Assembly (NCBI GenBank): GCA_022059125.1 | Contig: JAEUWY010000011.1 | Span: 1 to 64,000, forward strand | Length of the DNA stretch: 64,000 nt | From: Corynespora cassiicola | Taxonomy: Eukaryota; Ascomycota; Dothideomycetes; Pleosporales; Corynesporascaceae | Direction: 5' to 3' | Part shown: positions 15,565 to 48,165 of the stretch, piece by piece | Numbering within the stretch: the stretch's first letter is position 1 | Layout: the number at the start of each line of letters is the position of its first letter | Position numbers and translations under genes: made by a program | The notes under the pieces: model-generated | Databases searched by the model: none | What the model was told of the DNA's origin: nothing | Seen by the model: the letters and a program-made list of their open reading frames with translations, nothing else

Positions 15565-15605
15565 TACCCCACCGTTACCCCACCGCTACCCCACCGTTAG
15601 CCCAC
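15565..15605 (-). promoter_or_regulatory. Four-copy TACCCCAC array, 11-bp period (GTGGGGTA motif)
   Basis: TACCCCAC at 15565-15572, 15576-15583 and 15587-15594, then TAGCCCAC at 15598-15605, each exactly 11 bp apart, close to one helical turn. The complement is GTGGGGTA, the octamer found upstream of the cluster enzyme genes. Function as a protein-binding array is inferred from recurrence and from the predicted specificity of the C2H2 regulator at 22867-25541. Confidence 0.55.
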
Positions 15606-15892
15606 AGCTTTCTTATTGAAACTTGTGACAACAGTCATAATATTGGCGAGAGGCTGCATTGCGTTTCACCTACTCGCCATTTTCGTAGCCTCCCACAAAA
15701 TTATGTACACCAAATACCAATCCAGCCACACGATTAAAATATGCAAGGCCTGGCTTGGCTCGAACTAGCAGCAAACTACAGGGCTCTTAGCACCCTCAAC
15801 TCAACTTGTATCTGTGGCAATAAAGGAGTTGTTTCTAGGTCCGTGGCTATGCTCTTCGTATGACGCAATTGTGGAGAAAGATAAAAGGTGGC

Positions 15893-16003
15893 ATGTCGAA
15901 TCTAACAACGGCAGACAATTATTATGTGGTCGCCGTGCCTACTCGGCACAACCTCAGCGTTGAAGACGCTCTCCTCGAGCAAATGGTTTACGCAAAATTC
16001 TGA
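15893..16003 (+). CDS. Short ORF, possible truncated 5' end of a lost gene
   Basis: 36 codons starting at an ATG 287 bp downstream of the GTGGGGTA array. The translation looks protein-like (ADNYYVVAVPTRHNL, SVEDALLEQMVYAKF) and then stops. No splice donor rescues it, and isochore DNA begins 300 bp further on. I do not recognise a family. It may be the remains of another cluster gene, or chance. Confidence 0.2.
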   Translation: MSNLTTADNYYVVAVPTRHNLSVEDALLEQMVYAKF

Positions 16004-16319
16004 AAATATGCGAACGCTGTCGACGATTAGAAACTTTGGCTTATTAGACATCAGAGTTCTTATAAGCGAAATAGATGCTGACAGTTCATTTGGTACCACT
16101 CACGATCTCCGGCCGTGTGGGAAGCCTTGTCATCTTGCAGAAATTGAGCTGTTTTAAAATTGATTGGATTTATATTATCTTGTTGGTTTTTTTAGCAAAT
16201 CATGAGTGTGATAAGAGATAACTGAGCTTAAATTGCTTTAGCTGGGCTTCCAGATACCTGAAATCGCTTATTAGTCAGCTAAGCCGACAGCGCGGGGCAA
16301 ATTACCAGAGGGTTATTCT

Positions 16320-17930
16320 ATATAACGGTGCATCTTAGCTTCTATTAAATAAAAGCCTGTTTAGCAGCTCCAGATTTCAGCTCTAGATTAAGTCTAAATT
16401 ATAGTATTTTTAGCGTTATTTTCAGCTTATAGTAATAAGAATTAAAGTTTTTAGTTGTTCTAAAATAAATATAAAAATAAAAAATTATTTAATATTATCT
16501 AATTATATTTAATTAAAAATATTTAGTTTTAATACTTTATAAGAAAAATATTATAAATATTTTTTATAGCTGTTATTATTAATCTAAAATTTTAATATAT
16601 TATTATTTAATTTGTAGTTTTTATAAATTTTTTTTAATTATTTTATATAAATAAAAACTTTTATTTAAATTCGATAGCTAGTTTACTAAATATTAGAAAT
16701 AAAAAAATTACTTAACTAATAATAAAATTAAATAAAAAGTATATAAGAGTATTTTTAAAAAAAATATATATAGCAAATATTAAAAGAGCTATAAAAGTTC
16801 TTTTCTTCTAGCTATACTAGGCTAGAACTAAATAGTAGATATAAATTAATAAAAAAAACAGAAATAATACTAGTTAGATATTTAATAAAAAAGTAGCTAA
16901 AAATAACAAAAAATATTTAAATTATTAATAAGTAAGTAAGTTATTTTTATTTTATAAGTTTATTAGTTTATTAGTTTAAAAGTTTTTTACTACGTAAGTT
17001 ATAAATTACAGATTATAAGTTATAAAAAGAAAATTATTTTAAAAATTTAAAACTTTAAAAATTTAATTTTAATTTTTTACTTTTTAACTATAATTACTAT
17101 TACCAAACTTATCTATAAAAACTTTCTATTATTTTTATAGTATTCTAATATATTATAATAATTTTTTAATAATTTACTTTTTTAATAATTTTAATTTTAA
17201 ATTTAAAAGTTATGTAACTAAAAATTATGTAACTTTAGTAAATTATAGATTTTTCTAATATTATTATTTTAGCTATAATATTTTAAATTAATTTTAAACT
17301 ATATATAAAATTTTATTAAATAATTTTTATTTATATTTAAAAATACTAAAAATTAAATATTAAAAATTTAATAGTTTTATTTATTTTAAAAGCGTTATTT
17401 AGTCTACTATATTTTATTAAAAGTAAAACTTAGTATTAATCTATAAATATTGTTATAATAGTATTTAATAGTTTTTAATAATTATATTTTAGAATATTTA
17501 CTAATTTTAAGTTAAACTTTTTTATTCAATAGAGAAAATTTTGTATTAAATATTAAAGTTAATACCAGTAGAAATATATATATAAAAATTATAGTAATTT
17601 TATTTAAATTTTGTTTTACTACTTCTTTAACTATAACAACTTTTTTAATTATTACTATTTTTATAAAAAATTTTATAATAGTTAATAATACTTTACAAAT
17701 TGTAATTAATAATAATAAATACTATTAGTAGTAATAATATATTTTAAAAATACTTATTTTATTATAAATAAACTCTAAAAAGATACTCTATATTTTTAAA
17801 ATTCTATATAATAATAAACACTAATAAAAACTATTTGAAGTTATTAGTATTAATTAGTAAATTACTTTTAAAAACTAATCAAAAGCTAATCTAATACTTT
17901 TTAAACTAAACGCGATGCTATCTTCCGGCT
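16320..17930. repeat. AT-rich RIP-like isochore
   Basis: Stops in all frames, CA/TG depleted. The stretch from about 16780 to 17250 is an inverted, diverged copy of the repeat at about 47400-47890 (shared phrases such as CTAGAACTAAATAGTA and ACTAGTTAGATATTTAATAA). The element type is not identified. Confidence 0.75.
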
Positions 17931-18031
17931 AATTCTACTTATTTAGCTTATAGGAAGGCTTTATATGTGATCTGGGGCAATTTCCAAATAGGTCCTAAAT
18001 AGACTGACATAGGCGGGTCAAAAAACTCACT

Positions 18032-18077
18032 GTGGGGTAGTTCTGCACTCGTGGGGTAGTTTTATACTCGTGGGGTA
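18032..18077 (+). promoter_or_regulatory. Three-copy GTGGGGTA array, 19-bp period
   Basis: GTGGGGTA at 18032-18039, 18051-18058 and 18070-18077, spaced 19 bp, the last two preceded by ACTC. It lies 164-209 bp upstream of the start codon of FAD monooxygenase 1 and is a candidate operator for the cluster regulator. It also fits the general CreA/Mig1 consensus SYGGRG, an alternative explanation. Confidence 0.6.
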
Positions 18078-18240
18078 CCACTGTTTTGCTTTTGGATAGA
18101 AAGTAGGCGTGCTACAACAACATAAAAGCCAGGGTATTAGAGCTCCCTATCGTTTTTATGACACGAAAACATCCTCAGCTATTCACAGTTCTTTCCCATC
18201 AAAATTGACTATATCCGACCATCTCCGACCACTTCAAATC

Positions 18241-19780: not shown

Positions 19781-20945
19781 ATAGTGCTACCATAAAGACA
19801 TTTAGCATAGTAGTTCTAAAGTATGGGTGTGGTGAAGAAGAATAAGAACTGAGTTGATTTCCATAGATGGCTACAGCTCTGTACTTATATCCTTTATAGA
19901 TTGGAGCCTGTCTGAAGTGCGTAGAATAGTAGGTTTTATATACTAAAAGTAAACACACCACAACTATGCTAGTCACGTGAAGGCCAACAATAATCAATCA
20001 AAGAAAATCATCTCCAGTGGCTTTGGAACAAGATTTTCATGAACGCGAGCTAGAGTATCTCCTAATGAGAGACGTGCAATTTTTGACAGGTTGTGATGTG
20101 CTGCGAGCTCTACCGACAGATTCTCTATGACACGCTTCAAGTCGCAAAACATGGTACAACGAAGCTATTGAAAAGAGGAGGGACACTGGAGAAGTCGGTC
20201 GTGTGAGGGTGGGGTTTAGAAATTAAAGTGGCGCCTCCGCTAGGGGGAACATTACGATGCAACACGAGTCATGGTTTCGTGCGCCGACGGACAAGTTTCC
20301 ATCCCTCACACTTGACGTCTACGGCCACAAACGGAAATGGATATGACGTACATTCTGTACCCCTCAAATCTGAACATGGACAGTATGCCATGGTTGATGC
20401 AGAAAATGGGAGCGAGTAACAAACGTCATGTTGATTGGTCGTTGTGCTGAGCCATCGATCGCACACATTGGCACAGGCAGGCTAGGCTATGCCGAAAGTG
20501 CCCTGCGGCTCATGCCCACCCTATACCGCTGTATTCCTTGATACCTCCATGCAGAGCCTCGGTATCTTCTCTTGTAGCTTGCTCTTTTAGTACAATGCTA
20601 GTAGGTCAGCCTGCGGTGCTTATAGTACCCCACTCAGTGGATTAAATGCTGTCTTACAAATACATTTCGTGTCTCAAAGAACTATCTGGCGTGCTTGTAT
20701 TAGAAATTGTTACCAAGCAATTTCAAATAGGTCTAAGGCGGGCCGTTTTTTTTATTTGATGGGGGGGGGGGGGGTAGCAATAATTGTTAAACATGGGGTG
20801 AGATCGCCCAAAACAGAAAGCGCGGCCGTGGTGGGGTTACATCGGAAAACAATACAAGTTCGGCTGTTTCACAACGCGGTCATTCTTTTTTGGAGAGACA
20901 ACCCAGCCAACAATCTTTCAGTTCGACTCGCTGCAACAAATAACA
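19781..20945. promoter_or_regulatory. Intergenic/promoter region of the reductase gene with GTGGGGT motifs
   Basis: No gene supported. It holds TACCCCAC at 20626-20633 (313 bp before the next start codon), GTGGGGTT at 20831-20838 (108 bp before it) and GTGGGGTT at 20209-20216. A run of 14 G occurs at 20761-20774. These match the motif seen in front of the other cluster enzyme genes. Confidence 0.5.
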
Positions 20946-22001
20946 ATGAAGGAAGTCCAAGTACATGTGGAAAGCGCACCTCCTCACGACATCAACACTA
21001 AAATTGTGGATATTCTTCGCCCTTCACCTGGAAGAAACCAAGTGTTGATCCGTGTGATTGTTGCCGGAACGAACCCAAAGGACTGGAAGTACCCTATCTT
21101 CTTCGGCGGCAAATCCGGCGAGAATACAGGAGACGACATTGCAGGCTTTGTCGAAGATGTCGGAAGCGACGTGACCGAGTTCAAGAAGGGAGACCGTGTG
21201 GCCGCCTTTCATGAGATGGGAGCTCCTGCTGCAGCGTTTGCCGAGTACGCTGTCGCGTGGGCGAGCACAACATTCCACATTCCCTCGAAGACGACCTTCG
21301 AAGAAGCCGCTACAATCCCGTTAGCTGCCATGACGGCGGCGACAGGACTCTTTTGTCGCCTTGGTCTTCCAGAACCCTGGAATCAATCCGGAGTATCGCG
21401 TGAGCATGCGCAAAAGTCAGCTGTCTTGGTTTACGGAGGTGCAACTGCTGTTGGCGCCTTTGCCATCAAGTTACTGAAACGAGCAAAAATCCATCCCATC
21501 ATTACAGTTGCGGGTGGGGGCATAGATTTTGTCGAAAGTATTTTGGACAAATCTCGGGGCGATGTGGTAATTGACTATCGTCAAGGAGATGCAGCCGTTG
21601 TTCGTGGGATACGAGCTGCGGTACCATCGGGCAAGAAACTCAACTTTGCCTTCGATACCGTAAGCGAGGGTACAAGCGCGGCCAATATCCAACAGGTCCT
21701 AGAACCCCATGGTCGTCTCTCTGGCGTGTTGCCTTACACTGCTCCAGTTTCTGATACAGTCCGGTATTCTTTCACCAATGTTGGGGATGTACACGGCTTG
21801 ACTGCCCACTTTGAAGACTTTGGCCACGCTTGGTTTAGGCTTTTTAGTCTTGGTCTTGGAGAGGGATGGTTGCACGGGCATCCTTTTGAAGTGATCCCTG
21901 GTGGGCTAGCAGGTGTTGAACTCGGTCTGAGAAACCTAAGAGATGGCAGAGCCAGTGCTGTCAAGTATGTTTACCGTGTGGAAGACACCCCAGGACTTTA
22001 A
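20946..22001 (+). CDS. Medium-chain reductase (quinone oxidoreductase / trans-enoyl reductase type)
   Basis: Intronless, 351 aa, GroES-like N-terminal domain followed by an NADPH-binding Rossmann domain. Visible features: VLIRVIVAGTNPKDWKYP, GDDIAGFVEDVGSDVTEFKKGDRVA and AVLVYGGATAVGAFAIKLLK (cofactor loop). The zinc-ligand Cys/His set of alcohol dehydrogenases is absent, so it belongs to the zinc-free branch that includes ToxD-like proteins and the trans-acting enoyl reductases of fungal polyketide clusters. It would reduce a C=C bond with NADPH. It follows FAD monooxygenase 1 by 1.2 kb on the same strand and faces the regulator tail to tail. The MDR call is firm; a trans-ER role needs a partner PKS, which is not in this window. 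Confidence 0.88.
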   Translation: MKEVQVHVESAPPHDINTKIVDILRPSPGRNQVLIRVIVAGTNPKDWKYPIFFGGKSGENTGDDIAGFVEDVGSDVTEFKKGDRVAAFHEMGAPAAAFAEYAVAWASTTFHIPSKTTFEEAATIPLAAMTAATGLFCRLGLPEPWNQSGVSREHAQKSAVLVYGGATAVGAFAIKLLKRAKIHPIITVAGGGIDFVESILDKSRGDVVIDYRQGDAAVVRGIRAAVPSGKKLNFAFDTVSEGTSAANIQQVLEPHGRLSGVLPYTAPVSDTVRYSFTNVGDVHGLTAHFEDFGHAWFRLFSLGLGEGWLHGHPFEVIPGGLAGVELGLRNLRDGRASAVKYVYRVEDTPGL

Positions 22002-22866: not shown

Positions 22867-25541
22867 TCAGACGCCTGCTTCTACCAGGACAGACGCTTGG
22901 TGATTCTCTTCGTAACAAATTGCCAGTTGCTTAAGGATGTTGCCCATCCTAGGCGTGATTCCCCAGACCCAGGTATCAGCCAATACAGCGCTACATATAT
23001 TTGCTAAAGCAGCAGCCAGTGACTTCCCACTGTACTCAAGCCCAGCCTCATCGACGAGCTCCCTCAACCCATCGAGAATATATGATTCTTCGACATCTAG
23101 AGGGCTCATTGCCATGCCAATTTCAATGATGTGTGTCCATTTTGTTAGGAGCAAGGCTAAGAAAATATCAGCTGGGCACAAAACATGTTTTTGAGATACA
23201 ATGATTACCTGAATCCCATCCAGACAAAGCATGCTCTATGCTCCATGAGAATGCGCCCGTCTTTCTTAAAAACATATGGCCAATTTTTACAGTTGAGAGC
23301 AACCTCTCGAAGATTTTCCTGACGACTTTGGTAAGCCTTGGGCTGCGTCGATGTGGCAACCGCGTATATGATCTTGCCGCCGATGCTATATCCTCTGGAT
23401 TGTCCGAGAGAAGAGTCAGCCGCTTGAAGATGCCGGTCTCGGAAAAAAGATGGGTATACGAGAAGATCAAGATTCCCTGACAGTTGAACATGAGAGGCCC
23501 TTCTGTGTTGTTCCAAGTTGCCATATCATCGGTATTGCCATGTGGATTGTCGATAATATCTTGACATCTGGAAAGTATCGAGAAAGCTGTGTGAAACAGA
23601 GCCTCATGCAATCCTGAGTCTGGCAGTGTATCATGATGCATTCCACAAGGATGCATAACCTCCATCAACTTCGACATGTAGGTGTTTACTGCATGCGTCA
23701 TAAGCAACATAGTGAGCCCAGATATTTGTCCTGGCCAATCGCCTGTATCCGAATGTCGGTCGAAAATGACATGTGCCATGGTCTGACGGACAGTATAGTG
23801 GCCACTCGTTTGATGTTCGCTAAGAAGACTTTTCCATTCCTGAGCCGACCTTGCGTCCCAGAGCGTTTCATTGTCCAGAACTTCGAATTCCAGATCCTGT
23901 GTGTGTGAGAATCCAGGGCGTACGCCATAAGTTGTCGATATAAGGTTGGAAACAATGAACATTGCGCAGAGGAGTCTTTTGCCAGATTCCCGGCCAATCC
24001 AATCTTCCCAGTCTAAGTGTTGGTTTTTTTTTTGGTTTAATGATACTTTCCTCAGTCTGTAATCTATGGCAAAGAGCCCAAGGTTTTCAATTGTCCCCAT
24101 GACAATTTTTGACTTGCCACTGAACATTCCGGCTAGTGATAGTAGTACCCTTGTCTGCATGATCCAAAGGGGTGCTGGCTTAGGTGTACTCGTTGTGGTG
24201 GCAGGCAAGCCGCACCTTAATGCATTGGAGTTTATATTGCTAGCCAAAGCAAAGAGGTTCTTGGATTTCTGTCTTGCTAATCGATATAACGCGCCAATGC
24301 TGCATACAGCAAATATCAGCGGACTCGGCGTCTCTCTTATGTCCAGAGAAGGTAGATGTAGAATTGGGAAGTGCCTATGAAAGCATTCCAGATAGCTCGA
24401 GAAAAACTGGTTGAGGTCATTCACTGTAGGATATAGTGCTTCTGATAATTCTCCAGAGCGACACCTCGTTTTTGCGTCCTCACATATTTTCCTATGAATT
24501 TCATGATCGAAATTGAATCTAGGAATATCCGAGCATTTGTCCCTTTGTACTCTGGGCAGGCTTCCGTTGCTAGTCTCATTTTTCGACTGAGATATCTGGA
24601 GCGGCCTATTGAAGTCAAACAACGCAGGATAATCAGCCGATAGCTCGTGGAACGCGAGATCGAGGAAGTGGTCTAGTGCAGCGGGTTGGCCAGATGGAGT
24701 GTACTCGTCATTATGACCCAGAGAGAATAGAAAACTCTCAGCAGGCGCAGTACCAGTCGCCGGACGTTGAGACCATGAGGTTGTTGGAGAAAGCGCTTGC
24801 ATTACACGAGATTCATCCTCAAAGACAGGTTGGGGATTAGTTTCGATGCGTCGTCGCTTCGTGGGTGACTCGTGCGTATTGACCGGATAAGAAGTTGGGA
24901 CCACGTTCGTTTCGATTGGGTTGAAGTCCGTGTCCGTATCAAAAGGAAAATATCCTTGCCAATTTAAACCACCCATCGTTGAGCCATCAACTCTCATGGT
25001 ATTTTGGCCTTCTGTTGACTGCGTATCATGTATGATAGCAATTTCACTCTGCACGAAAGCCTGAGTCGTCAAAATATCGACACTGATAGGCCCAGGCGTG
25101 TGTTGGGCAGGTATTAATGGTGACAAGGGATCTCCTGTTTGGCGCGAACAGCCTCCAAAGTCTCCTTCCCCACCAGGTATACTGCTTGCCATTGCAAAGG
25201 AGTTTCTCCGGAACTCCTCAGGATAGGCCTCTCGATACTGCTCGACGTGTAGACTACGTCCATGCTTTTTCACTAAATCCTTTTAACAAGTCAACTAGCT
25301 AGTTATCATAACACCCTCCTAGACATACCTTTCTTGTAAATCTACGATCGCAAAATGCGCAAGGAAAAGGGCGTTCCCGTGTATGCACTCGCTCATGTCT
25401 CGCACAGTGCTCGCTCCGCTTGAAGACCCGTGCACAGTATGTGCAGCGGTAAACTCGTTTTGTCCGCCTGGCTCTGGTTTTTTTGGGAGTAGCTGCATCG
25501 AAAGAGGCCTGAGAAAAAACCTGGAACACCTCTGTCGACAT
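22867..25541 (-). CDS. C2H2 zinc-finger regulator with fungal transcription-factor domain
   Basis: Three exons on the minus strand: 25329-25541, 23209-25279 and 22867-23171, giving 862 aa. Intron 1 (49 nt) splits the second finger; intron 2 is short (37 nt) but in phase. Two C2H2 fingers: Cys33/Cys36/His49/His53 and Cys61/Cys64/His77/His82. Helix contact residues (-1, 3, 6) are Arg42, His45, Arg48 in finger 1 and Arg70, Leu73, Lys76 in finger 2. By the standard recognition code these predict 5'-GNG-GGG-3'. The middle and C-terminal parts carry the fungal transcription-factor domain (LHLPSLDI, WEDWIGRESGKRLLCAMF, SYTRLPHRRSP, SWSIEHALSGWD). It is probably a nuclear activator specific to the surrounding cluster, whose promoters carry GTGGGGTA. 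No such octamer was seen in its own upstream region. Architecture firm; regulon inferred. Confidence 0.88.
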
Positions 25542-29591: not shown

Positions 29592-30906
29592 CTACATTTT
29601 ACTCAATCGCTCCCGCACTAGTGCTGAGACTTTCGGCCATTGTTCTTCTGCTGTACGCTCTGCATCGTTCTCCCAAAGGTATTCGCTCGCCAGTTTGAGT
29701 GAATCAGCATCAAAGTCCTCTCTGAGCTTTCCAGTATTATGATCGTGAGCATTATGCCATGTCGTTCGCGTGGTGATACCAGTTGCTTGAGCCTTCTTGA
29801 CGTACTCATGGCGAATTTCAAAGTAAGAGTGAAGTGCCAGAGGCACATTTCCCTCCCCAGATAGAGATAGACACTTTGCAATGGTTATCCCATCTTCCAT
29901 GGCTTGACTCGCACCTTGAGTTGAAGTGGGTAAGAAAGGGTGAGCGGCATCGCCCATGACGGCGAGTAGACCCGAATCGGCAACGAATTTGTCCAGACAA
30001 GGCCGAAATACTAGCTTCCAATCCAAGCAGTAGTCGATCTTTTCCCAAACCGAACGGAACAAAGGATTCCAATCTTCTATGAGTTTCATCACGTCCTCCT
30101 TTCGACCAGGTACCATCCATCCTTCGTCAATGTCTGCGCAATCCTTATGAGTGAGCACGGCATTGATCTCTTTCCCTCCCTTTAGAGAACAAAGCATGCC
30201 GTGTTTGTCAGGCGCAATATAGGCATGTACAGCGTCGCCTGTGCAGTTTTCGTATCAGAATTCTTGCATAATTTTTGCCGTGCTAAGCGATGAAAGACGT
30301 ACCCTTCTTGATGAACTCCTGGACAATTGGATCATCTTCGTAAACCTTTGCATCTACAAACGTTCGATATACCGCATAGCCACTATGATGAGGCTTGTCA
30401 AAGTAGTTCAAAACTTTTTGTCTGCCAATAGACTTGACGCCATCAGCACAGATGACCGCGTCGGCAATAACTTCTTCCCCAGATTCTAGAATAGCACTAG
30501 GCTTATCAGCGTCGTAGTCGACCACTTTTGTATTTGTTCGTATTGTAACTCCCAAGCTCTTGCAATGGTTGAAAAGAATCATGTGATAATCTCCTCGATG
30601 TCCCACAAGGCTATGGGTTCCGTACTGAGCTTCAGACTTTCCAAATGCATCATCGACCAGAATGATCTCGCCCGTATCGTAGCTACGCATTTCCATGGTA
30701 TCTGATTTCAGGCTTATTGGCCAAAACTGATCCCAGAGACCCCATCGTTTAATGAATTGGCTGGTGTTAGGACCAAAGCCAATCGAATCTCCGATCCGCA
30801 AAGGCTCTACAAATTGGTCGATGACAGTAACCTCAAATCCTTCTCTGCGACATGCAATCGCACATGCAAGACCCCCCAGGCCAGCGCCGACAACTACGAC
30901 GTGCAT
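29592..30906 (-). CDS. FAD-dependent monooxygenase 2 (salicylate-hydroxylase-like)
   Basis: Two exons on the minus strand, 30303-30906 and 29592-30238, joined across a 64-nt GTACGT...CACAG intron; 416 aa. Motifs: GAGLGG at residues 7-12 with Asp30 ending the second strand, CADG at 153-156 (the family norm is GADG or PDG-type, so Cys is a small variant), and GDAAHP at 297-302 followed by TSTQGASQAMEDG. It is a paralogue-like partner of FAD monooxygenase 1 but only distantly similar. Expected to hydroxylate or epoxidise a cluster intermediate using NAD(P)H and O2. It is divergently arranged with the O-methyltransferase across 639 bp containing GTGGGGTA, so the two are probably co-regulated. An in-frame upstream open stretch to 30975 is not used, because the ATG at 30906 begins the Rossmann fold. 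Confidence 0.9.
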
Positions 30907-31545
30907 AGTAGTTGAATTGAAAGAACAAAAATCGTTGATTCGGAGACTGCAGGAATAGAAAAGAACTCGATTCACGGGGGTATTGTGTTTTTCGTCAATG
31001 GCAGTTATTTAAGGTAAATGTGGTTGTTTGAATTAAATTCTAATAGGCATAACGGCAACCATTGCACCTGGCATCCCAGCTACGCGTAATGCCCAGTGGG
31101 GTAACATTTCCCAAATATGAAACAAATTATAGATTTGAAATATACCCCTCATTTGCCGTGGAGCATTGGATGGTCGTGTTTTTCGATATATGGAGTAAGT
31201 AGACTGCTGAAGGAGGCTAGTGAGTCACGCTTACACTCGGCTGTACTACCAAATCTGCCCCACGGACAAAACTCGGACGACAATCACGTAACTTCCCCTA
31301 AATCACCAATATACAATGTGGCACATCTTTTGTTTTTTACTCCACTAATACTGGGGACATTGATAGTAACGTGACTGTGACATGAATGTGACTCGAGGTG
31401 TTCGAGAGGTTCGCTGGGGTACTCCACTCAAGCCTTAAGGACATTTATTTGCTTCTCCCCACCTTGCCTAACAGAATTTCTGTCGTCTATTCTCAACAAA
31501 TTTCAATTGATATTTATCTCAATCATTCTCTTCACTGCACTCACC
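30907..31545. promoter_or_regulatory. Divergent promoter between FAD monooxygenase 2 and the O-methyltransferase
   Basis: 639 bp. It contains GTGGGGTA at 31096-31103 (190 bp from the monooxygenase start, 443 bp from the methyltransferase start) and CTGGGGTA at 31414-31421 (125 bp before the methyltransferase start). A CGGGGGTA occurs at about 30975-30982. A shared control region is inferred from geometry and motif recurrence. Confidence 0.5.
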
Positions 31546-33184
31546 ATGTTGCTACAGGCCCTCCTCTCGTCGCTAAAAGCAAATATTGAGAGGTATGAAT
31601 CAGAATTAGGTGAATCCTCGATCCACCTTTGGGAACCTGAGTTACACGAAGGCATTGATGATCCTGAGAACCTGATGCCGCCTGGAGCATTCCATGCATT
31701 AGATAAAATTCGGACTGATCTTCGTGCTATCGATGCGACAGTGACTCCGACAAGATTCAAGCTTATCGAGTTAGCTTTAGCAGCCATTAAACCAAGTGCT
31801 CTCAATGTTGCCGTCACACTCGGTATTTCTGATGCTATTGAGGAATTTGGAGGCAGTGCCACCATTGAGCAACTTGCGAGGCGCTTGGATGTCAATGAGA
31901 ACAAACTAGGTATATTATTTCTTCTCTGATTTCCAAACAGCATTTATTCGTTCGGAGTTCTAATGTCTACAGCCAGGATAATTCGTATTCTTGAAGCAGA
32001 CTACATCTACAAAGAGACAGAGCCGAACCGCTTCGAAAATACCAGACATAGCATCTCGTTACTGAAAAAGACCGGCTCAGGGCATTTCCTTTCTTTGACG
32101 TAAGTAAGAACTCCTCAGGCATCGTTTCTATCCGAGAATTTTCATGAGAAGAGTATCTTAGATGTCTACAGGGCAGAACAAAATACATTGGCATCAACAG
32201 GCCTATTGAAAAACATGATAGATCCAGAGATGAAACACTCCTTCGCCCCAGAACAGGCACCTTTCTGTCACACAACTGCCAAGAATGGCGAGACTTTTTT
32301 CGAATACATAACGCAGCCTGATAACGCCGATCTTGCAGCTAAAGTCGAGCTGGGCGTTATTCCGTGGTTAAATGTGCGTTCCTGTTATTCTCTCAAAATA
32401 GCTTATATGCTGAGTCTATGATAGAGAATCACGAGAGGTGGGCTAATACACGACTACCCTTGGGAAGAGGTTTCTGGTTCTTCCGTTGTCGACATTGGCT
32501 GTGGTCCAGGTGACAGCGGAATTGACGTTCTCAGGCTCAACCCTACCTTGCAATGGACATTCCAAGATCTTTCACCTGTCATTGAAAACTTAGAAAAGGC
32601 GAGTGTCGAATAACATTGGAACTTGTAGTCATCGTCATCTAACTGCCTCCAATACAGAATTTTCCTGCAGACTTGAGCAAGAAGATCCAATCCGGAACCG
32701 TGAATTTTGTCGTGCAAGACTATCTTCAACCTAATGTGAGCCGAGGAGATATTTGGTATCTCAGAGCAGTAATGTGAGTACATGATTTGGGATGACATAC
32801 CGAACAGTTCATACTAAAGCTGCTGATAGCCGTGATCATGACGATGAGGAAGTCGTGAAAATTCTCAAACACATTGCAGAGGCCATGCGACAAACTCCAG
32901 GCGCAAAGCTGGTTCTCAACGAGGCATTAGTCTCCAGCCCGGTTCTGCTAGAGGGTAATAGGTTAGGCGCGACAGTAGTACCCTCCAACAACATTCCGAA
33001 ACAGCAATCAGCCTTGGCGGAGCTAGCCAATCTCATGACTTGGAACACATTCCTTCTCTTTGGTCAGTGGGAAAGATCCTTCCTAGAAGTCAAATCATTG
33101 TTACACAAGGCAGGTTTTGTTGTATCAAGGTTCTTTAAGCTACGGACATTTACAGTAATGATTGAGTGTAAACTAGCTGAGTAG
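31546..33184 (+). CDS. SAM-dependent O-methyltransferase (COMT-like, fungal)
   Basis: Six exons: 31546-31909, 31973-32099, 32172-32373, 32437-32598, 32658-32773 and 32830-33184, giving 441 aa. A winged-helix dimerisation region is followed by the SAM-binding motif VVDIGCGPG at residues 248-256 and the usual QDLSPVIENLEK. The fourth intron appears to start with GC (AAAAG/GCGAGT) rather than GT; reading on from there meets a stop five codons later. The last intron (56 nt, branch-like TACTAA, acceptor GATAG) gives ...YLRAVIRDHDDEEVVKIL. The family usually has the catalytic His in HDW at this place; here Arg325 takes that position and a His follows at 327. It should transfer a methyl group to a hydroxyl of a small molecule. 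Family firm; activity slightly uncertain. Confidence 0.86.
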
Positions 33185-38131: not shown

Positions 38132-38136
38132 ATTTT
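38132..38136. repeat. Target-site duplication, left copy (ATTTT)
   Basis: ATTTT directly before the 5' LTR, identical to the five bases directly after the 3' LTR (44948-44952). Five-base duplications are standard for Ty3-type integrases. Confidence 0.85.
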
Positions 38137-38506
38137 TGTTATGAGCCACAAACGTGGGCCAATGACGGGGCCGACAGGGTCGCACCGCCATGGCTGGTCA
38201 CGTGACGTGCTCAGTTGATCAGTCCGCTCAGCAGTACTGAGCAACTGAGCAGTACTGAGCAGAAGCCTCAGGCACATGTATATAGTCCACACAATTGTAC
38301 TCTACAATTGTGTTCACCTTGTTAGCAAATCTATCGTTTGGAATTGACTATCAACCTATCGTGCTCTATCTGCCAACACGGAGACCCGTACAGCATATCG
38401 CACATCGTTTCACTCACGTGACCCTACCAGTACTTATCCCCGAGAATCAACCCAAGCAGCTACTTGCTCCCTAGCCTCGCTCATAGCCTGTAGCACAGCC
38501 TTAACA
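38137..38506 (+). repeat. 5' LTR, 370 bp
   Basis: Begins TGTTATGAGCC and ends CCTTAACA (TG...CA). It contains a TATATA box at 38279-38284 and the sequence GTGTTCAC at 38310-38317, about 30 bp downstream, where transcription would start. Two direct copies of GAGCAGTACTGAGCA-like sequence lie upstream of the TATA box and may be enhancer repeats. Confidence 0.93.
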
Positions 38507-38508
38507 TT

Positions 38509-38516
38509 GTGAACAC
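38509..38516 (+). other. Candidate primer-binding site (self-priming type)
   Basis: GTGAACAC starts two bases after the 5' LTR and is exactly complementary to GTGTTCAC at the predicted RNA 5' end (38310-38317). This arrangement is that of Tf1/sushi elements, which prime minus-strand synthesis with their own RNA end. I did not match the site to a tRNA 3' end. Confidence 0.5.
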
Positions 38517-38524
38517 CCTTCAAG

Positions 38525-40519
38525 ATGAGTACCACTTCAGGATCACGCGCACCCTCAACCCCAACCAGTAGCACTGTTGGTGCTAAGGCCACTACTGGTG
38601 CAATCGTACAACCTAACACGGCAGACAACAATTCTATCAAAGTAGCAACACCTGACCTCTACCATGGAGAACGAAGCAAGCTCGAAGACTGGCTCTTGCA
38701 GCTCGACTTGTTCTTCGACTTCCAAGGTGGAAACGTTAAGGAAAAGAAACGCGTCATGTTCGCAGCCACGTACATGAGAGGCAAAGCACTTCAATGGATC
38801 AAACCAGCTCTCATCAAGTACAAGGACGGCGAAGCCAACGACGACGTCAACGAATGGATGGAGGATTTCGATGAATTCAAGGAGAAGATCAAACAAGTCT
38901 TCGGAATCGCCAACAAGGATACAATTGCCGGACGAGACATCCAACATCTCAAACAACGGGCTTCAGCTGCTGACTACGCCAACGAATTTCAGCAACTGTC
39001 GATCCTCACGGAATGGGATGACAAGGCACTTATGACGATGTACCGCCAAGGACTCAAACCCAACGTCAAAGAAGAACTCATGCGTTCTGGAGCTCAGCTC
39101 GACACGCTTGAACAACTTATAAATGAGTCCATCGACATCGATCAGAAACTGTACGAACTGCGTATGGAATTACGCCAGGACCAAAACCCACGATACCGAC
39201 AACGTACCAAACCAAGCTATGGCAAAGGGTACTACAACGCCAACACCGGTAAACGAGTTGAACGCAAGGTAACGCATCTCACTCGTGACACCTATGGTGA
39301 CGAACCAATGGTCCTCGGTAATATCCAGGAAGCGGGACGAGGAGGTAACAAAAAGAGAAACGACAAGCCTAAAGGCAAGGCTATAACTTGCTACGCGTGT
39401 GGAAAGACAGGCCACATCGCAAGAGACTGTCGATCAAAGAACAAGGTCGTTCGACAGCTAAATGTATTGCAAACCACTCCGGATGACGAATCCGACGCAG
39501 ACGATGAATGGAAAGTCGTCGTAGACAGATTCCAGAAAACGGGATTCATCTGCGACAGCGAACCACTGCGACATGGAGAAACGGAGGGATTCTTCGATTG
39601 TGTTCAGTATCAAGACAAAGGCACTCAAACGGAGCCTAGGAGCATCCTTAAAGAAGTCAAATTTGAAGGACCTAGCCCCGAGGAAGAAGAAGCCTTTCGC
39701 GAAGCACACGATCACGAAGACTATCTAAGCGACGCCAGTTACGAGTTCGAAAGAAACAGCGATGGCAGCACGCCACCCGAACTCGCACGATTCAGGATGA
39801 ACAAGGACCTCGAAGAAATACAAGAATTGGCCGAAGCTCTTAAGGAACACAGGAGAGATTCGACAAGAACGCCCGCATGGCGGGAAGAATCACCTGTAAC
39901 GCGCAAACGGACAAAGAGGCACAATGACTCAGACAAAGAAAATCAAGACCCAGAGGAACGCCGACAACGACGCAGTTCCAAGGCATGGGAACGAGTCAAT
40001 CAACCAGATTCAGGAATCAAACTGGGAGTTTTACCAGACCCTGACAGCGAACCAAACACGGTTCCAAGTCCTCTACGAAGCCGAAACACGCAAGAACTGC
40101 AATACTACCTAGACCCAAGGAATCCAAAACACGTAACTTACTCATGGACCTCTTGTCGAGAAGACCAATGTCAAATCCACTACTCGGACAAGATGGCCGC
40201 AAACTGGTTTCCATCCAAACCACGCGAATGCAAACATCAATGGTTCGACTGCGAGACACATGTATGCGACACTCACCTATGGGACAAACGACAATCACAA
40301 CATTTCCCCGGGATGAACGAAGCTGAAGAACTCGCAACGAACATGCTAGTCAACAGGAGATGTACGCAAGATCTCTGGCAAACATGCTTACACGATGATT
40401 GCGAACGTCACTGGAATGAGAAACGCTTGTATGGATTCAGCAACGAGTCTTTTTTAGGACAGCACTTAGCGCCTGGGATCGACCCAAGGCATTGTGCGCT
40501 ACCAACTCAGAGAACTTAG
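38525..40519 (+). CDS. gag: Gag polyprotein of the chromovirus
   Basis: 664 aa. Residues about 40-225 are the capsid-like retrotransposon gag region ([46 protein letters not shown]). A CCHC zinc knuckle [14 protein letters not shown] is at 289-302. The roughly 360 residues after it are acidic and charged, longer than most Ty3 Gag tails. They end in three CX4CX2H motifs (Cys544/549/His552, Cys576/581/His584, Cys621/626/His629), each preceded by Trp at -3 and followed by a D/E-K pair. The ORF starts 18 bp after the LTR, and its last codons contain the T TTT TTA slippery site at which pol translation is proposed to begin. It should form the virus-like particle. Confidence 0.93.
40450..40490 (+). 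promoter_or_regulatory. Candidate -1 ribosomal frameshift signal (slippery heptamer plus hairpin)
   Basis: T TTT TTA at 40450-40456 lies in the gag zero frame as TCT-TTT-TTA, which fits X XXY YYZ. A -1 slip enters the pol frame, open from there. A hairpin follows: GCCTGGG (40471-40477), loop ATCGA, CCCA-A-GGC (40483-40490), seven pairs with one bulged A. An alternative outer stem is TAGCGC (40467-40472) with GCGCTA (40496-40501). Confidence 0.7.
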
Positions 40520-43500
40520 TCAAGCTACCTGTCAAGCTTAATGGATACTGGATGAAGGCATTATTAGACACAGGGGCTCAGCGCAACTACCTTTCACAGC
40601 AGGCTGTAAAGCGTAGTAAGGCAAGAACGCATGCCCACGAGCGACCCTATTTCCTCCACACGGCAACTGGAAGGAAGATGCCAGGAAAAGCATTGATGGA
40701 TCAAGAAGCCACGACCATCATGGACATCCAGGGACACCAGGAAGAGATCTCCTTCGACATCATGGGCACGGCCATCCACGACGTCATTTTAGGACTTCCA
40801 TGGTTCAGAAAGCATAACCCATATATCGACTGGGCGAAAAAGAAGCTTTCGTTCATAGGATGCGAGTGCGCCATCGCATCGGGACCTACGCATCGGCAGC
40901 GTTCGATGGTAGATGAGATCACGCTGAATAACATAGGCAGCAAGGGATCGACTAAGACGCTTTCAAGAAGAAAGGTCGACTCCACCAGATCCGACAAGGA
41001 GCCACCGGACAAAGAAGTGAGAGATTTGGAGACAACTCGCGCAACTCCTGTAATCCCCGAAGAGTACAGCAAATGGGAACCACTCTTTCGAGAAGAGGTA
41101 GACGACAGAGCGTTACCTAAGCATCAGCCCTGGGACTGCGAAATAGCCCTTCAGGAAGGAAAGCATCCGACTTTCGAGCCCATCTACAGTCTAACGGAAA
41201 AAGAACTCGTATCGTTACGAGCATACCTCGATGAAAACCTCAAGAAAGGATTCATACGCGAATCAACGTCAGAGGCGGGATACCCGATCATCTTTGTTCC
41301 CAAGAAAGATGGATCCCTACGGTTATGTGTGGATTTTAGGAAACTCAACAACATCACGATCAAGAACAGATATCCACTACCGAACATTCAAGAGCTCAGA
41401 GATAGGCTATCTGGAGCACAGATATTTACAGCCTTAGATCTCCGAGGCGCGTACAACTTGATACGCATGAAGAAAGGTGAAGAATGGAAGACGGCATTCC
41501 GGACGCGGTATGGGCACTATGAATATCTTGTAATGCCATTCGGTCTTACCAACGCACCTGCGACATGTCAGGCACTCATCAACAACGTGTTGAGAGCACA
41601 CCTAGACATATTCGTCATCGCATACCTAGATGACATCCTAGTCTTTTCCAAGGACCTCAAGGAACACGTCCAGCACGTACGAACAGTACTGGAATGTTTG
41701 GGAAAAGCAGGACTACGACTCAAACCAGAGAAATGTGAATTCCACAAAGAAGAAGTTGAATTCTTAGGACACATTGTGGGAAGACACGGAGTCAAGATCA
41801 GTCCAAAGAAAATTGAAGTAGTCAAGAACTGGCCTACGCCAAAGAACGTCAAGGACATACAATCCTTCTTAGGATTCTGCAACTTCAACAGGCAGTTCAT
41901 CGATCACTACTCAGAAAAGGCACTACCACTCACCAAATTAACAAGAAAAGATGTACCATTTAAGTGGGATACAGACCAACAACAAGCCTTTGAGACACTC
42001 AAAGAAGCAAGCATATCACCACCGGTTCTCATATCTTTCACCAGTGGAAAACCCTTACGCATGGAAACAGACGCATCAGACCTAGCAATGGGAGCATGCA
42101 TCAGTCAAGAAAAAGAAGGCAAATGGCACCCGATTGCCTACTATTCGAGAAAGTTCAGCGGAGCTGAAGAAAACTACGATGTTCACGACAAGGAATTACT
42201 TGCCATCATAGACTCTCTCAAGCATTGGAGAATCTACGCAGAAAGCTGTTCAGAACTCACGGTATACTCGGACCACAAGAATCTAATGACATTCACGACA
42301 ACCAAACCATTAGACCGACGACATACCAGATGGAGTGAAGAACTAGGACAGTACAAATTCAAGATTGTCTACACACCAGGCAAAGAAAATGGAAGAGCAG
42401 ATGCTCTGAGTCGAAGGACGGACATCGCAGGAACCAAGTCAACGAACGAAGCTGCTATCCTCAAGCAAGCGCCAGACGGCACTTTAGGGCCAGCACGCAG
42501 CATCAATCTTATCATGACAGTACATCAACAAGTACCAGAAGAACTTCATCAAACCATCATCCAGCAGTATCACGAAGATCCGTTGCACGGACACCCAGGT
42601 GTCGAACAAACGATCAAACTGATACAACGAACGTACGACATCCCTGGATTGAAAGACAAAGTAGCGAAGTTCATCAAGAAATGCACAACATGTCAAAAGA
42701 ACAAGCACAGTACACACGCTCAATATGGAGAACTACAAGCTGTAGAAATACCAGACAAACCATGGACAGACATTGCTATGGACTTTGTCACCGGATTACC
42801 AACGTCTCACGACCCGGTTTCCAGAGTACCCTACAATGCCATCCTAGTGGTTGTGGACAGATTCACGAAATACGCAGAAATGATTCCATTTAGAGACAAC
42901 TACACTGCGCCGGAACTAGCACAGGTTATTCTGGATCGCGTAGTTAGGTATCACGGATTGCCTCAATCAATCATCAGCGACAGAGACAAACTCTTCACAT
43001 CAAACTACTGGACGACACTGATGTCAGCCATCGGAATTAAAAGAAAATTATCAACGGCATACCATCCACAGACAGACGGTCAAACAGAAAGAACAAACCA
43101 GACCATGAAAACATACCTACGGATGTATAGCAACCAAAAACAAAATAATTGGGTATCACTACTACCCATGGCACAACTCGCATTCAACAACAGAGAATCA
43201 GTAACGACGAAGCAATCTCCTTATTATGCATTACACGGGACACACCCAAATCTCCTATTACCAAGGATTAAGGAAGAACGAATCAAGCCAGTTGCAAGTC
43301 AAGCAATGGACAAATCGGGAGAATTACGAGAACTTCACGAACAATTACGAAAGAATATCGAGACAGCACAACGCAAGACCATTTCTTATGTCAACCAGAA
43401 ACGAAAAATGGCACCTCAGCTAAAGAGGGGGGATAAAGTGTATCTTCTCACGAAAAATCTTCGAACGACACGACCAAGCAAGAAATTGGATCACGTCAAG

Positions 43501-43983
43501 GTCGGACCATTTTTGATTCTAGAACGAAAGGGACCAGTCAACTATAAACTCCAACTCCCTGCCAATGCTAGAATACACCCAGTGTTCCATGTGTCACTAT
43601 TGGAACCTGCCGACGCCGAAACACCAGTCCAAGAACACTTCCATTACGAGACGGAAGAAGAAGTCGAATTCGAAGTAGAAGCGCTAGTAGGCTACCGCGA
43701 GATAGGACGAGACGAATTCCGCGACAACCACTTCGCACAGGAATGGTTGGTCAAATGGAAAGGATACCCAGATTCGGAAAACACTTGGGAACCAGAACGA
43801 AACCTGAAGAACTGTCAGCGACTACTCAAGGAAAGCCGAAGACGAAATCACCTCCACTACTACACAGGGGTAATCAAAGAAAACATACCCGAAGAAAGGC
43901 GACACATCGTACACGACCAAACACTTAGGGACCAGCGGACGACACGGGTACTTCCCAGAAGTTGTCGGGAAAACCCTCGATAG
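40456..43983 (+). CDS. pol: Pol polyprotein (PR-RT-RNaseH-IN-chromodomain)
   Basis: In the -1 frame relative to gag, overlapping it by 64 nt and with no ATG near its beginning, so probably made as a Gag-Pol fusion by frameshifting at 40450-40456. Counting from 40492: aspartic protease LLDTGA at residues 24-29; reverse transcriptase with YLDD at 378-381; RNase H starting [11 protein letters not shown] at 524; integrase zinc domain His699/His703 region with paired Cys in CTTCQKNK near 731-734; integrase core with DFVTGLP, SDRDKLF and GQTERTNQ; then a C-terminal chromodomain ([22 protein letters not shown]), which defines chromoviruses and may steer insertion into heterochromatin. All motifs are intact. 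Confidence 0.95.
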
Positions 43984-44536
43984 CGCTCCAAGTGCTCGGA
44001 GAAAGGTTAAGAGCAAGACCCTCGGAAGGACCGTCGAAAGTAAGAACTTCGGACAACGCCTCGCGTTCCCGCTGCTCTTGCTCCTCCAGGTCTCGTTCCT
44101 CCACCGATATGGCCTCCTCCGCACGACGATCGAGCAAGTCCATCTGTTGACGAAGCCGCTCTTCTTTGGCTCTCGCCACCTGCAAGTCCTCCAAGGCCTT
44201 TTCATGCGCTTTCACAGCCGCATCCTGCGCTTCGCGCGACTCCTTTATCTGTTGTCGCAATTTCTCTTTCTCCTTAGCAAGACGCTGGAACTCGGACTGA
44301 GTAACGCGAATGTTGCACCGCTGCCCGCGATGCAGACACTCACTGCACTTTCCGGAACGAACATGCACCTTACACACTCGTTTATGCTTTACGCAAGTCG
44401 AACACTTTTGAACCATGACTTCTCCTACGGCCTCGACAAAATCAGCTAGGCGATGACGGCGGACGGTACTGGAGACTGTTGGTGTTTTAGGCATCGTTGC
44501 GAAAGTGGGCAGCAACGAGGGAAACCCGCGCGTCAT
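43925..44536 (-). CDS. Antisense ORF: Zn2Cys6-like cysteine cluster plus coiled coil
   Basis: 203-aa ORF reading against gag-pol, in the gap between the pol stop and the 3' LTR and overlapping pol by 59 nt. Its start codon is 42 bp from the LTR, so a promoter in the LTR would have to drive it. Six cysteines at 45, 48, 55, 64, 67 and 74 have spacing CX2CX6CX8CX2CX6C, that of Gal4-type binuclear zinc clusters. Basic residues lie between them, followed at about 80-165 by a Glu/Lys/Arg/Gln-rich segment with strong coiled-coil character. Zinc cluster then coiled coil is the layout of fungal DNA-binding regulators. The frame is long, clean and lies mostly outside pol, which argues against chance. 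Function unknown; it could act on retroelement transcription. A second Met at 44494 is an alternative start. Confidence 0.65.
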
Positions 44537-44564
44537 ATGTTAGCTCAGAGGACCGAGCTAGGCT

Positions 44565-44577
44565 AGAGGGGGGATAG
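44565..44577 (+). other. Polypurine tract
   Basis: AGAGGGGGGATAG directly before the 3' LTR; the purine run AGAGGGGGGA is the expected plus-strand primer of an LTR retrotransposon. Confidence 0.75.
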
Positions 44578-44947
44578 TGTTATGAGCCACAAACGTGGGC
44601 CAATGACGGGGCCGACAGGGTCGCACCGCCATGGCTGGTCACGTGACGTGCTCAGTTGATCAGTCCGCTCAGCAGTACTGAGCAACTGAGCAGTACTGAG
44701 CAGAAGCCTCAGGCACATGTATATAGTCCACACAATTGTACTCTACAATTGTGTTCACCTTGTTAGCAAATCTATCGTTTGGAATTGACTATCAACCTAT
44801 CGTGCTCTATCTGCCAACACGGAGACCCGTACAGCATATCGCACATCGTTTCACTCACGTGACCCTACCAGTACTTATCCCCGAGAATCAACCCAAGCAG
44901 CTACTTGCTCCCTAGCCTCGCTCATAGCCTGTAGCACAGCCTTAACA
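44578..44947 (+). repeat. 3' LTR, 370 bp
   Basis: Same length as the 5' LTR; I found no difference between them when reading base by base. Identity implies recent insertion. It may also carry an antisense promoter for the ORF at 43925-44536. Confidence 0.93.
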
Positions 44948-44952
44948 ATTTT
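44948..44952. repeat. Target-site duplication, right copy (ATTTT)
   Basis: Matches 38132-38136. Confidence 0.85.
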
Positions 44953-47900
44953 TAGTTTTTAATTTTTTATATTTACGTTACGCAGTTTATATAATTACTG
45001 CTATTTATATATATATATTTTTACTTCTATTTTACTTTTTAATACTATTAATTTCTACTATTTTAATTATTTTACGTACGTTCTCTACTATTTTATATAA
45101 ATATTATAGTAAGATTATATATAGTATAGTTATATATAATATAGCTTTTTCTGTTTTTTTCTACTGTTTCTATTTTATTATTAACAAGCAGCGAGTATAT
45201 TATTTTATTTCTATTTTATTTTAGTTAGCACATACTATCTGTTGCGTAACTTTATATATTTTATAATATTATTTTATTACGTAATATAATATTAATACGT
45301 AATCTACGTCTTTATTTTAAATAATAATAGTATTTTAATAATTTTTTCTGCTACTAATTTATAATAACTATAACTATAATATTTTTTTAGCGTATAATTT
45401 TTAGACGTGTTCTTAGCTTTTAATTTTTTATATCTGTGTTACGTAGTTTATATAATCGCCGCTGTCTACGCACTCACTCTCTCATACTATTACTTTTTAC
45501 TATTTTAATTATTTCGCGTAGTTATATAAATATTATAGTAGAGTTATATATAGTATAGTTACGTATAGTATAGTTTACAGTTATAGTAAGAGCTTAAAAA
45601 AAAAATTAGATTAATATATACTTTTATAGCAAAAATTTAAAAAAAAAGATATAATTAATTAAGTAAGAAAACTGTTAACGCTAAAAGTTACTTATAAATA
45701 CTATTTTCTATAACCGCTATTACTTTATAATTACTATTATATATTAGCAGTTATTTAAATATAAAATATATATAATATATATATTACTGCTGCTGCTGCT
45801 GCTGCTGCTTAAACTACTACTTTTTTTTTTAACGTTTTTAAAAGTTTATAAAAAAAAACTATTTACTAAATAGAATATTTAAATAAAAATACTGCGTAAC
45901 AGAATTAAAGTTTAAATTTTAACTTATTATTAGTACTAAAAACTCTAGCTAAAGCTTTAGCTAAAGTTTTATCTAAAATTTTAAAAAAAAGTTATTCTTA
46001 CTATAAACTAAAGTTATTAAAATAATACTAACTACGTTAAGCGTAGCTGTAAAAATTAAAACTTTACAGACTATTATAACTATTATAGCTATTATAGTTA
46101 TATTACTATGCTATATTAGCTGTAAATTGTTCTAGTTCTATAAAACAGCTTATTTATAATAAGTCTTAATTAAAATAAAATGCTTTTTCCGCGATTTAAA
46201 AAAGCCGCGATTTAAAAAAACCGCGATCTAAAAAAGCTATAATTTAGAAGTTTTTATTAAAAATTTATTTTATACAGTTTTAGTGCAGTAAACAGTATTT
46301 TTATATTTATAAATATTAGAATTAAAATCTACAGCTCGACAACTTATTAAAAAAAAAAAATTTTTACCAGCCTATAAATTACAATTATTTACTTTAATAT
46401 TATAATAACTTTAAATAGGCTTTTATGTTACTGTTTTAGAGCTTTAAAGCTTTAAAGTTTTAAAATAATATTTTATTTTAAGCTACTGTAACTCTTGTGA
46501 CTTACGTGCTTATAAAATAAAAATTACTTATATACTATAAATTAAAAATATTATTATAACTAAGTATATACACTGCTAACTATATACTAGCGTTAATAAT
46601 CTAAATATTTTTTATTAGTTTTAGTTACTGTTTTGTTAAACGCCTGACCAGCGTTATTACTATTTATACTTATTATCTGTATTTATTATTTAGTTCTAGC
46701 TTAGTAAAGCTAAGAGAAAAGAACTTCTACAGCTTTTCAGATATAATATAGCTTATAGTAGTTATAGTAAAAGCTTAAAAAAGGTAAATTAATTAATTAA
46801 GTATATATAAACTATAAATATTAAAAGTTATTTTTTCTAAATATTATTTTCTATAAATATTACTTTTTATAAATACTATTACGTACTTAAACGTTTTTTT
46901 TTATTTTAAAAAAATATCTAGCTAAAAAATAAAAAATACTATCTGCTATATAGAATATATACTTAAATATAGTAATAAATATATAAAAATAGTTAGTATA
47001 CGTAATTTTATATTTATTAAAAAAATTTTTTAAAGTTTTATATATAAAGTTTTATAAAATTATTATAATAAAAAAAATACACGTAGTAATAAAAATTATT
47101 ATAATAATATTAGTAATATTTACAGCCCGGAAAACTATAAAAATAAAAGCTATATTACTATACTAGTTAGTTTACTATAATAAAGCTACTAATTTTAAAA
47201 ACTTATAGTTAATTATAAGCTAGTTTATAAGTTAGTTTATAGTCTATAGTCTATAAACTAATTATAATAATTAGCTATAATTTTAATATAAGCTTTAAAA
47301 CTTACGCGTATAAATATAAAATTTAATAGAATTTAAAAAATAAATTATTTATATAGTTATTATAAGCGTAGCTAATAATACTTTTTTAAATAGTAATAGC
47401 TTTTTTTTATAATATTTATTTAAATAGATATTTATAAAAGTTAAATTTTTACAGTAAAATATTAGAGCTTTTATTTAAAGTTTTTATTTAAAACTTATAT
47501 TAACTTATTAAAAGTATTTTACATTCCGTAACTATACTTTATATTTAATATTTTAATAACTATAAATTATAAATTCTAAATTATGTTATTTTTAAATAAA
47601 ATTTTAAAACTTTAAAATAGTATTTTTTTTAACTGTTATTTTTATAATTTATAATTCGTAATTTATAACTTACGTAATTATAAATTTATAAACTAATAAG
47701 CTAGTAAATTTATAAAACAAAAATTACTTACTTATTTATTAATAATTTAATTATTTTTTATTATTTTTAGTTACTGTTTTATTAAATACCTAACTAGTAT
47801 TATTTCTTTTTTTTTTTATTAATTTATATTTACTGTTTAGTTCTAGCCCAGCACAGCTGAGAGAAAGAGACTCCCGTAGCTCTTTTAATTGCTGTTTTTT

Positions 47901-47990
47901 TATTTATATTTACTGTTTAGTTCTAGTCTAGTATAGCCGAGAGAAAAGAACATCTGTAGCCCTTTCGATAACTGGATCTACTAGCGCCGG
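44953..47990. repeat. AT-rich RIP-like isochore
   Basis: Relic repeats without open frames. 45150-45560 shares a repeat with 26020-26420, 37850-38131 and 52350-52800. About 46750-47680 is a diverged direct copy of about 52795-53670. A roughly 130-bp unit ending near TAGTTCTAGCCCAGCACAGC occurs at about 46615-46740, 47765-47885, 47895-47970 and 50100-50240, and inverted near 16790. An intact (CTG)8 tract lies at 45787-45810. Confidence 0.75.
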
Positions 47991-48043
47991 AGTGTTAGCG
48001 TTATAAGCCGTCTAGCTCCGCGCTGTGTTCTCAGATTCTAACA

Positions 48044-48165
48044 GTGGGGTGGTATCTAGTCTACTATACTATATAGCGCAGGTGGGGTAGTATCTAGTCT
48101 ACTATACTATATAGCGCAGGTGGGGTAGTATCTAGACTACTATACTATATGGCGCAGGTGGGGTA
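48044..48165 (+). promoter_or_regulatory. 38-bp tandem repeat, each unit opening with GTGGGGT(A/G)
   Basis: Units start at 48044, 48082, 48120 and (partial) 48158, exactly 38 bp apart and nearly identical. The heads are GTGGGGTG, then GTGGGGTA three times; the remainder contains CTA(G)TCTACTATACTATATA. It lies 228-349 bp upstream of the epoxide hydrolase start codon. 38 bp is twice the 19-bp spacing of the array before FAD monooxygenase 1. Confidence 0.65.

Follow-up and report, generated by a model that had tools for sequence, protein, structure and literature searches.

What does the octamer GTGGGGTA, which recurs ahead of a set of oxidative enzyme genes at the start of contig C11 of Corynespora cassiicola, do there, and which protein reads it? 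The window that we analyzed is the first 64,000 bases of this 177,974-base contig, in an assembly of 44.35 Mb and 23 contigs. It encodes two flavin adenine dinucleotide (FAD)-dependent monooxygenases (FMO1 and FMO2), a reductase, an O-methyltransferase and an epoxide hydrolase, and inside this cluster, between the FMO1/reductase and the FMO2/methyltransferase genes, lies a gene for a regulator with two C2H2 fingers and a Fungal_trans domain. We lean toward the reading that GTGGGGTA is a candidate operator of an Adr1-like two-finger C2H2/Fungal_trans pathway-specific regulator, with the gene at 22867-25541 as its likeliest reader; the observed basis is the sites and their arrays, their enrichment, a preference for the core GTGGGG, the finger residues, and a second locus.

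The window holds 12 exact copies of GTGGGGTA, against 0.68 expected from dinucleotide shuffles (12 reached in 0/100). An earlier note on this DNA had listed 11 of them, together with five near variants (15598, 20209, 20831, 31414, and 48044), and all lie where it had placed them; its statement that there were none elsewhere was wrong by one, a 12th exact copy standing at 3737 (+). If one mismatch is allowed, the window has 48 sites versus 20 expected (0/100 shuffles reach 48); the one-mismatch sites are scattered over the whole window, and 16 of the 48 sites fall inside the four enzyme promoter regions, which span 2,139 bp in all (500, 500, 639, and 500 bp) and where ~1.2 would be expected. 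A stronger signal than the octamer count alone is given by three arrays with unit lengths of 11, 19, and 38 bp, which hold 9 of the 12 exact copies. Their units have little in common besides the octamer, and a TA flank is retained in 10 of the 11 array copies. Even with every array counted as one, the sites occupy five places within 32.6 kb, versus 0.9 octamers expected from genome density (Poisson P ~0.002). The sites and the genes around them are as follows.

15565 to 15605, minus strand: array of 11-bp units, three exact GTGGGGTA and one GTGGGCTA, in an orphan island
18028 to 18077, plus strand: array of 19-bp units with three exact GTGGGGTA, which lie 171-209 bp ahead of the FMO1 start codon
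18241 to 19780, plus strand: FMO1, spliced, three exons with FAD-binding Pfam matches, ends set by eye
20626 to 20633, minus strand: lone GTGGGGTA, 320 bp ahead of the reductase
20946 to 22001, plus strand: the reductase, a zinc-type alcohol dehydrogenase/enoyl reductase-like gene (ADH_N PF08240, E=1.1e-11)
22867 to 25541, minus strand: the regulator, two C2H2 fingers (zf-C2H2) and Fungal_trans (PF04082, E=2.3e-17)
29592 to 30906, minus strand: FMO2, MAK1/salicylate-hydroxylase-like (PF01494)
31096 to 31103, plus strand: one exact GTGGGGTA in the promoter between the divergent FMO2 and methyltransferase genes, 190 bp from the former and 450 bp from the latter
31546 to 33184, plus strand: O-methyltransferase, spliced, with a dimerization domain (PF08100, over its cut-off) and Methyltransf_2 (PF00891, weak and below cut-off)
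48044 to 48165, plus strand: array of 38-bp units, one GTGGGGTG and three exact GTGGGGTA
48393 to 49796, plus strand: epoxide hydrolase, spliced (PF06441, E=3.9e-25; PF00561, E=1.9e-11), exons joined by eye

The earlier note had held that the motif marks all five enzyme genes, and indeed every enzyme promoter region has it, but the divergent FMO2/methyltransferase pair shares one exact site, beside which its 639-bp promoter carries five near variants. The reductase upstream region has near variants at 20769 (within a poly-G run) and 20831 and, farther upstream, at 20209, and the exact copies of the 38-bp array lie 235-311 bp upstream of the epoxide hydrolase; the start codons were picked by eye, and all site-to-start distances depend on them. 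GTGGGGTA is the only 8-mer common to all four enzyme promoter regions. Among 1,000 Markov-2 sets of such promoters, 27 had any 8-mer in all four, one had such an 8-mer with at least four G+C, and none had this octamer, while some 8-mer with at least four G+C reached 8 or more copies in two sets. The two control promoters, those of the regulator and of a small-protein gene at 51001, lack GTGGGGTA even with one mismatch included, and the regulator promoter has no site in the 500 bp upstream.

Genome-wide, GTGGGGTA occurs in 1,223 copies (627 + 596), fewer than the 1,493 of a reversed control, and is thus not a common word as such. Pairs of octamers within 30 bp give 14 genome hits versus 4 for the reversed control: 6 in the window's three arrays, 4 in a duplicate of two of these arrays on contig C8, and 4 elsewhere. 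The four array loci elsewhere correspond to 0.003 expected in 32.6 kb versus the 3 seen. Triplets give five hits, all in the three arrays or the C8 duplicate, and the reversed control gives none. The earlier note had considered that the octamer might be equally common upstream of unrelated genes; these counts, taken over the whole genome rather than by promoter, show the triplet arrays to be special to the cluster. The paired-octamer loci on C2, C4, and C5 were considered as similar clusters and set aside, the frames in the 3-kb loci showing none. One further pair, at G000:C20:1684239-1684276, has a ketosynthase match ~14 kb away, which may be chance.

The C8 duplicate belongs to an inverted 45-kb match between positions 1-44951 of the window and C8:145-45094, 99.99% identical and ending at the long terminal repeat (LTR) of a Gypsy-type element. 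Up to 44947, the two contigs differ by four single-base homopolymer indels only. The retrotransposon itself (38137-44947) has two long frames and LTRs identical over the 370 bases compared; it is flanked by ATTTT on both sides in C11, and the C8 end has another flank. Given the near-identity and the junction flanks, we thought it unlikely that C8 holds an independent second copy, and we read the match as a probable overlap between two contig ends in the assembly, a duplication being less likely. The element lies between the methyltransferase and the epoxide hydrolase genes; the cluster may therefore be split by a recent insertion.

Do the fingers of the regulator fit the octamer? In the finger code, position -1 of the recognition helix reads the third base of a triplet, position 3 the second, and position 6 the first. 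The two fingers are adjacent and near the N terminus; finger 2 exceeds the zf-C2H2 cut-off, and finger 1 was seen by its pattern and by a zf-C2H2_4 match below cut-off. The helix of finger 1 is RSEHCAR (R-1, H3, R6), and that of finger 2, joined by eye across an intron, is RKDLVKK (R-1, L3, K6), in agreement with the residues that the earlier note had given. Read through the code, these helices predict the site G-N-G-G-G-G: finger 1 would read GGG and finger 2 GTG, the T presumably lying under Leu3 as in Adr1. A basic stretch ahead of finger 1, RARRTKR, may read the 3' flank TA; Adr1 has an accessory region of this kind. These contacts are a family trait. Among 67 homologues examined, 45 matched the two-finger pattern, and 44 of these 45 have the contacts R-1, E2, H3, R6 and R-1, D2, L3, R6, the only departure being Thr at position 3 of finger 2 in a distant Penicillium protein. 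The local regulator keeps seven of the eight family contacts, Lys replacing Arg at position 6 of finger 2. Elsewhere in the genome, equivalent contacts are found in a paralogue on C15, a relative at C1:5680 (RNEHCIR/RKDLVKR), and a factor on C12 (RLEHLKR/RRDLLLR).

With Adr1, whose contact residues we take to be of the same R-E-H-R/R-D-L-R type, the local regulator shares the two fingers and a G-rich site; it differs in its Fungal_trans domain and in Lys6 of finger 2, and its site in having G first and a TA flank. Among the 168 matches that the local fingers gave is the Adr1 finger structure 2adr (E=9.5e-16), ranked far behind animal multi-finger proteins, which match repeatedly, and homologue P0037 bears the name “Transcriptional regulator ADR1.” A C2H2 factor with sites across a cluster has a parallel in GipA of the Aspergillus fumigatus gliotoxin cluster: according to the excerpted text of PMC4006717, predicted GipA sites lie upstream of all gliotoxin-specific genes but one, and the gliA site was tested by mutation. 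In the same excerpt, GipA differs in its site, TNNVMGCCNC, and in having its two fingers at the 3' end of the gene (PMC4006717).

A second locus bears on the same question. The C15 gene, a 63% paralogue of the local regulator whose product is 95.9% identical over 782 residues to protein P0001 of Corynespora cassiicola Philippines, has as neighbors (identified by eye) two cytochrome P450s, a short-chain dehydrogenase, a carboxylesterase, and an alpha/beta hydrolase. The five 300-bp enzyme promoters at this locus contain 8 sites that match GTGGGGTA exactly or with one mismatch, versus 0.91 expected (P ~5e-6), spread over four of the five promoters, and the only exact copy among them lies 92 bp before a P450. 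These 8 are part of 23 near-matches in the C15 30 kb, of which the promoters make up 5% (P ~1e-5). The top hexamers of the 300-bp promoters, obtained without a prior motif, are GGGGTA, GGGTAA, and GTGGGG. As in the window, the paralogue's own promoter has no near-match. The C15 locus thus lends real but moderate support to a shared family motif. At the other regulator relatives (L032-L036), no exact octamer was found in the 3.3-4.0 kb examined for each.

A number of observations weigh against the operator reading or dilute its evidence. The motif was discovered in the same promoters as were used for its test, and the four-promoter sharing alone comes to ~0.0015 once multiplied by ~33,000 octamers. 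Neither the exact copy at 3737, where no promoter was recognized and no target gene found, nor the 15565 array has an evident target, as no gene was recognized in the orphan island (no stop-to-stop frame above ~83 amino acids, six frames by eye). The contact residues single out a family rather than any one gene, since at least four factors in the genome have equivalent contacts. The Adr1 consensus published in the excerpted PMC3897899 is TTGGRG, the first base of which differs from the local GTGGGG. At C15, where start codons were likewise chosen by eye, the sites are mostly one-mismatch variants and the whole 30 kb is not enriched. With 500-bp promoters, the excess there shrinks to 8 versus 1.6 expected (P ~3e-4), and GGGGTA and GGGTAA still lead but GTGGGG ranks only sixth among 22 hexamers. 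Near-matches are missing from the carboxylesterase promoter, though AGGGGTA is present there; a reductase 3.6 kb away has weak variants only; the gene in between (marked DUF) has no near-match; and upstream of an EBP2-like gene stand an exact octamer (-412) and a near-match (-129). Permuted octamers, which are not a clean control at C15, attained this total in 2 of 167 cases with 300-bp promoters and in 3 of 167 with 500-bp promoters; as many promoters were hit in 7 of 167 and 15 of 167 cases, respectively.

Could a different protein read the sites? One candidate is another factor with the same contacts (the C15 paralogue, the C1:5680 relative, or the C12 factor), which would mainly read them, the local gene then being a duplicate, either degenerate or accessory. 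The equivalent contact residues of these factors, the similar sites at the C15 locus, and the Lys at position 6 of local finger 2, a place held by Arg in every one of the 45 homologues that match the pattern, would all suit this explanation. Yet the local gene showed no interruption other than likely introns, it sits within the cluster, and triplet arrays occur only there (plus the likely C8 assembly duplicate), so that we regard a mainly foreign reader as improbable. The earlier note had raised CreA/Mig1, the factor of carbon catabolite repression, as a rival, because its consensus SYGGRG includes GTGGGG. The genome does encode a factor with fingers (RLEHQTR, RSDELTR; C6:835320) that we take to be of CreA type; its finger 2 differs from the RKDLVKK of the local regulator. 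If CreA were responsible, its allowed words should be raised alike. Set against the rate in the rest of C11, GTGGGG occurs 12 times in the enzyme promoters versus 1.07 expected (~11-fold), or 7 times versus 1.07 when each array is counted once (P ~1e-4). The other seven SYGGRG words combined occur 9 times versus ~7.3 expected, which amounts to no general SYGGRG enrichment: GTGGAG (4 versus 1.18, P 0.03) and CTGGGG (3 versus 1.02, P 0.08) are mildly raised, CCGGAG and GCGGAG are at background, and GCGGGG, CCGGGG, and CTGGAG are absent. Moreover, SYGGRG does not require the TA flank, and the raised words partly carry it (GTGGAGTA twice, and CTGGGGTA), which would suit a factor tolerating G or A at the fifth base, like Adr1 with TTGGRG. 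While GTGGGG does fit the Mig1 consensus SYGGGG as given in the excerpt of PMC3897899, its standing far above the other SYGGRG words weakens this rival, which we consider quite unlikely.

Alternatively, no protein may be involved at all: the arrays could be neutral minisatellites, expanded by slippage in AT-rich surroundings, whose common octamer is a coincidence. Tandem repeats are indeed abundant in the window (141 rows), and two-copy octamer repeats occur at four other places in the genome. Slippage alone would have to produce the same word in three different unit lengths, place two of the three arrays near gene starts, and leave single copies in the two remaining enzyme promoter regions, while the reversed word forms no triplet; the probability that we give to this explanation is very small.

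We therefore return to the operator reading. The proposal of the earlier note that the local regulator acts through a pathway-specific operator stands insofar as the predicted site matches the motif, the motif is in every enzyme promoter, and the regulator lies in the cluster; it does not stand as an exclusive assignment, for the site is not unique to the local fingers and other factors share their contacts. We infer from the observed features that the octamer is probably bound, with the local regulator as the likeliest binding factor, and that binding may activate the enzyme genes and the basic stretch may contribute. Several sites per promoter would then bring the two monooxygenases, the reductase, the methyltransferase, and the epoxide hydrolase under joint control, with no autoregulation of the regulator through GTGGGGTA, and the operator would have been multiplied by separate tandem growth in three places. 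A more speculative extension, less likely than not to hold, is a family of Adr1-like C2H2/Fungal_trans proteins in the Dothideomycetes and beyond that shares the operator GTGGGGTA(A), each member governing adjacent oxidative enzyme genes; when a copy of the regulator was recruited to an AT-rich accessory cluster, its operator would have been multiplied there three separate times, in units of 11, 19, and 38 bp.

What the cluster makes or degrades can be approached from its enzymes. FMO2 resembles decarboxylative aromatic hydroxylases and MAK1-like monooxygenases, its best solved-structure match being the decarboxylative vanillate 1-hydroxylase 8x38; in FMO1, the third exon exceeds the FAD_binding_3 cut-off. 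The nearest relative of FMO2 among the matches listed comes from Cladophialophora psammophila. No relative is above 64% among the best 120 of 437 matches, and none of these 120 is named C. cassiicola, many carrying no name and names being shortened. Of the 67 proteins found as relatives of the local regulator, likewise, none exceeds 64%. Because the relatives of both proteins stay at or below this value, the cluster looks accessory, as far as protein lists can suggest. Of the 65 PF00109 ketosynthase matches of the genome, not one lies on C11 or within the first 416 kb of C8, so that no ketosynthase was found in or near the cluster; nonribosomal peptide synthetase, terpene, and dimethylallyltryptophan synthase cores were not searched for. 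Turnover of an aromatic compound would be as likely a role as metabolite synthesis. Next to the epoxide hydrolase, 51001-51318 would encode the first exon (106 amino acids) of a small protein with a signal-like N terminus, judged by eye, and this exon has no Pfam match. The orphan island (15330-16420) stands in AT-rich surroundings with both ends resembling short repeats elsewhere in the genome, and the genome matches of its array, beyond itself and the C8 duplicate, are short and only to its two ends. The octamer at 3737-3744 lies ~0.8 kb past the end of a hydroxyacid dehydrogenase frame, between the dehydrogenase and a fungal rhodopsin-domain gene.

Few of the C2H2 regulators of fungal gene clusters have, to our knowledge, an established operator, and literature searches on such regulators listed no close paper by title. 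A motif that comes with a genome-wide array test and a paralogous locus offers a direct and cheap binding test for a family whose contacts are near-invariant (44 of 45), and the octamer could guide a search for genes elsewhere that are regulated together with the cluster, a missing core enzyme, if there is one, among them. If the family-wide sharing of the operator holds true, operator amplification would be part of how such accessory clusters gain control.

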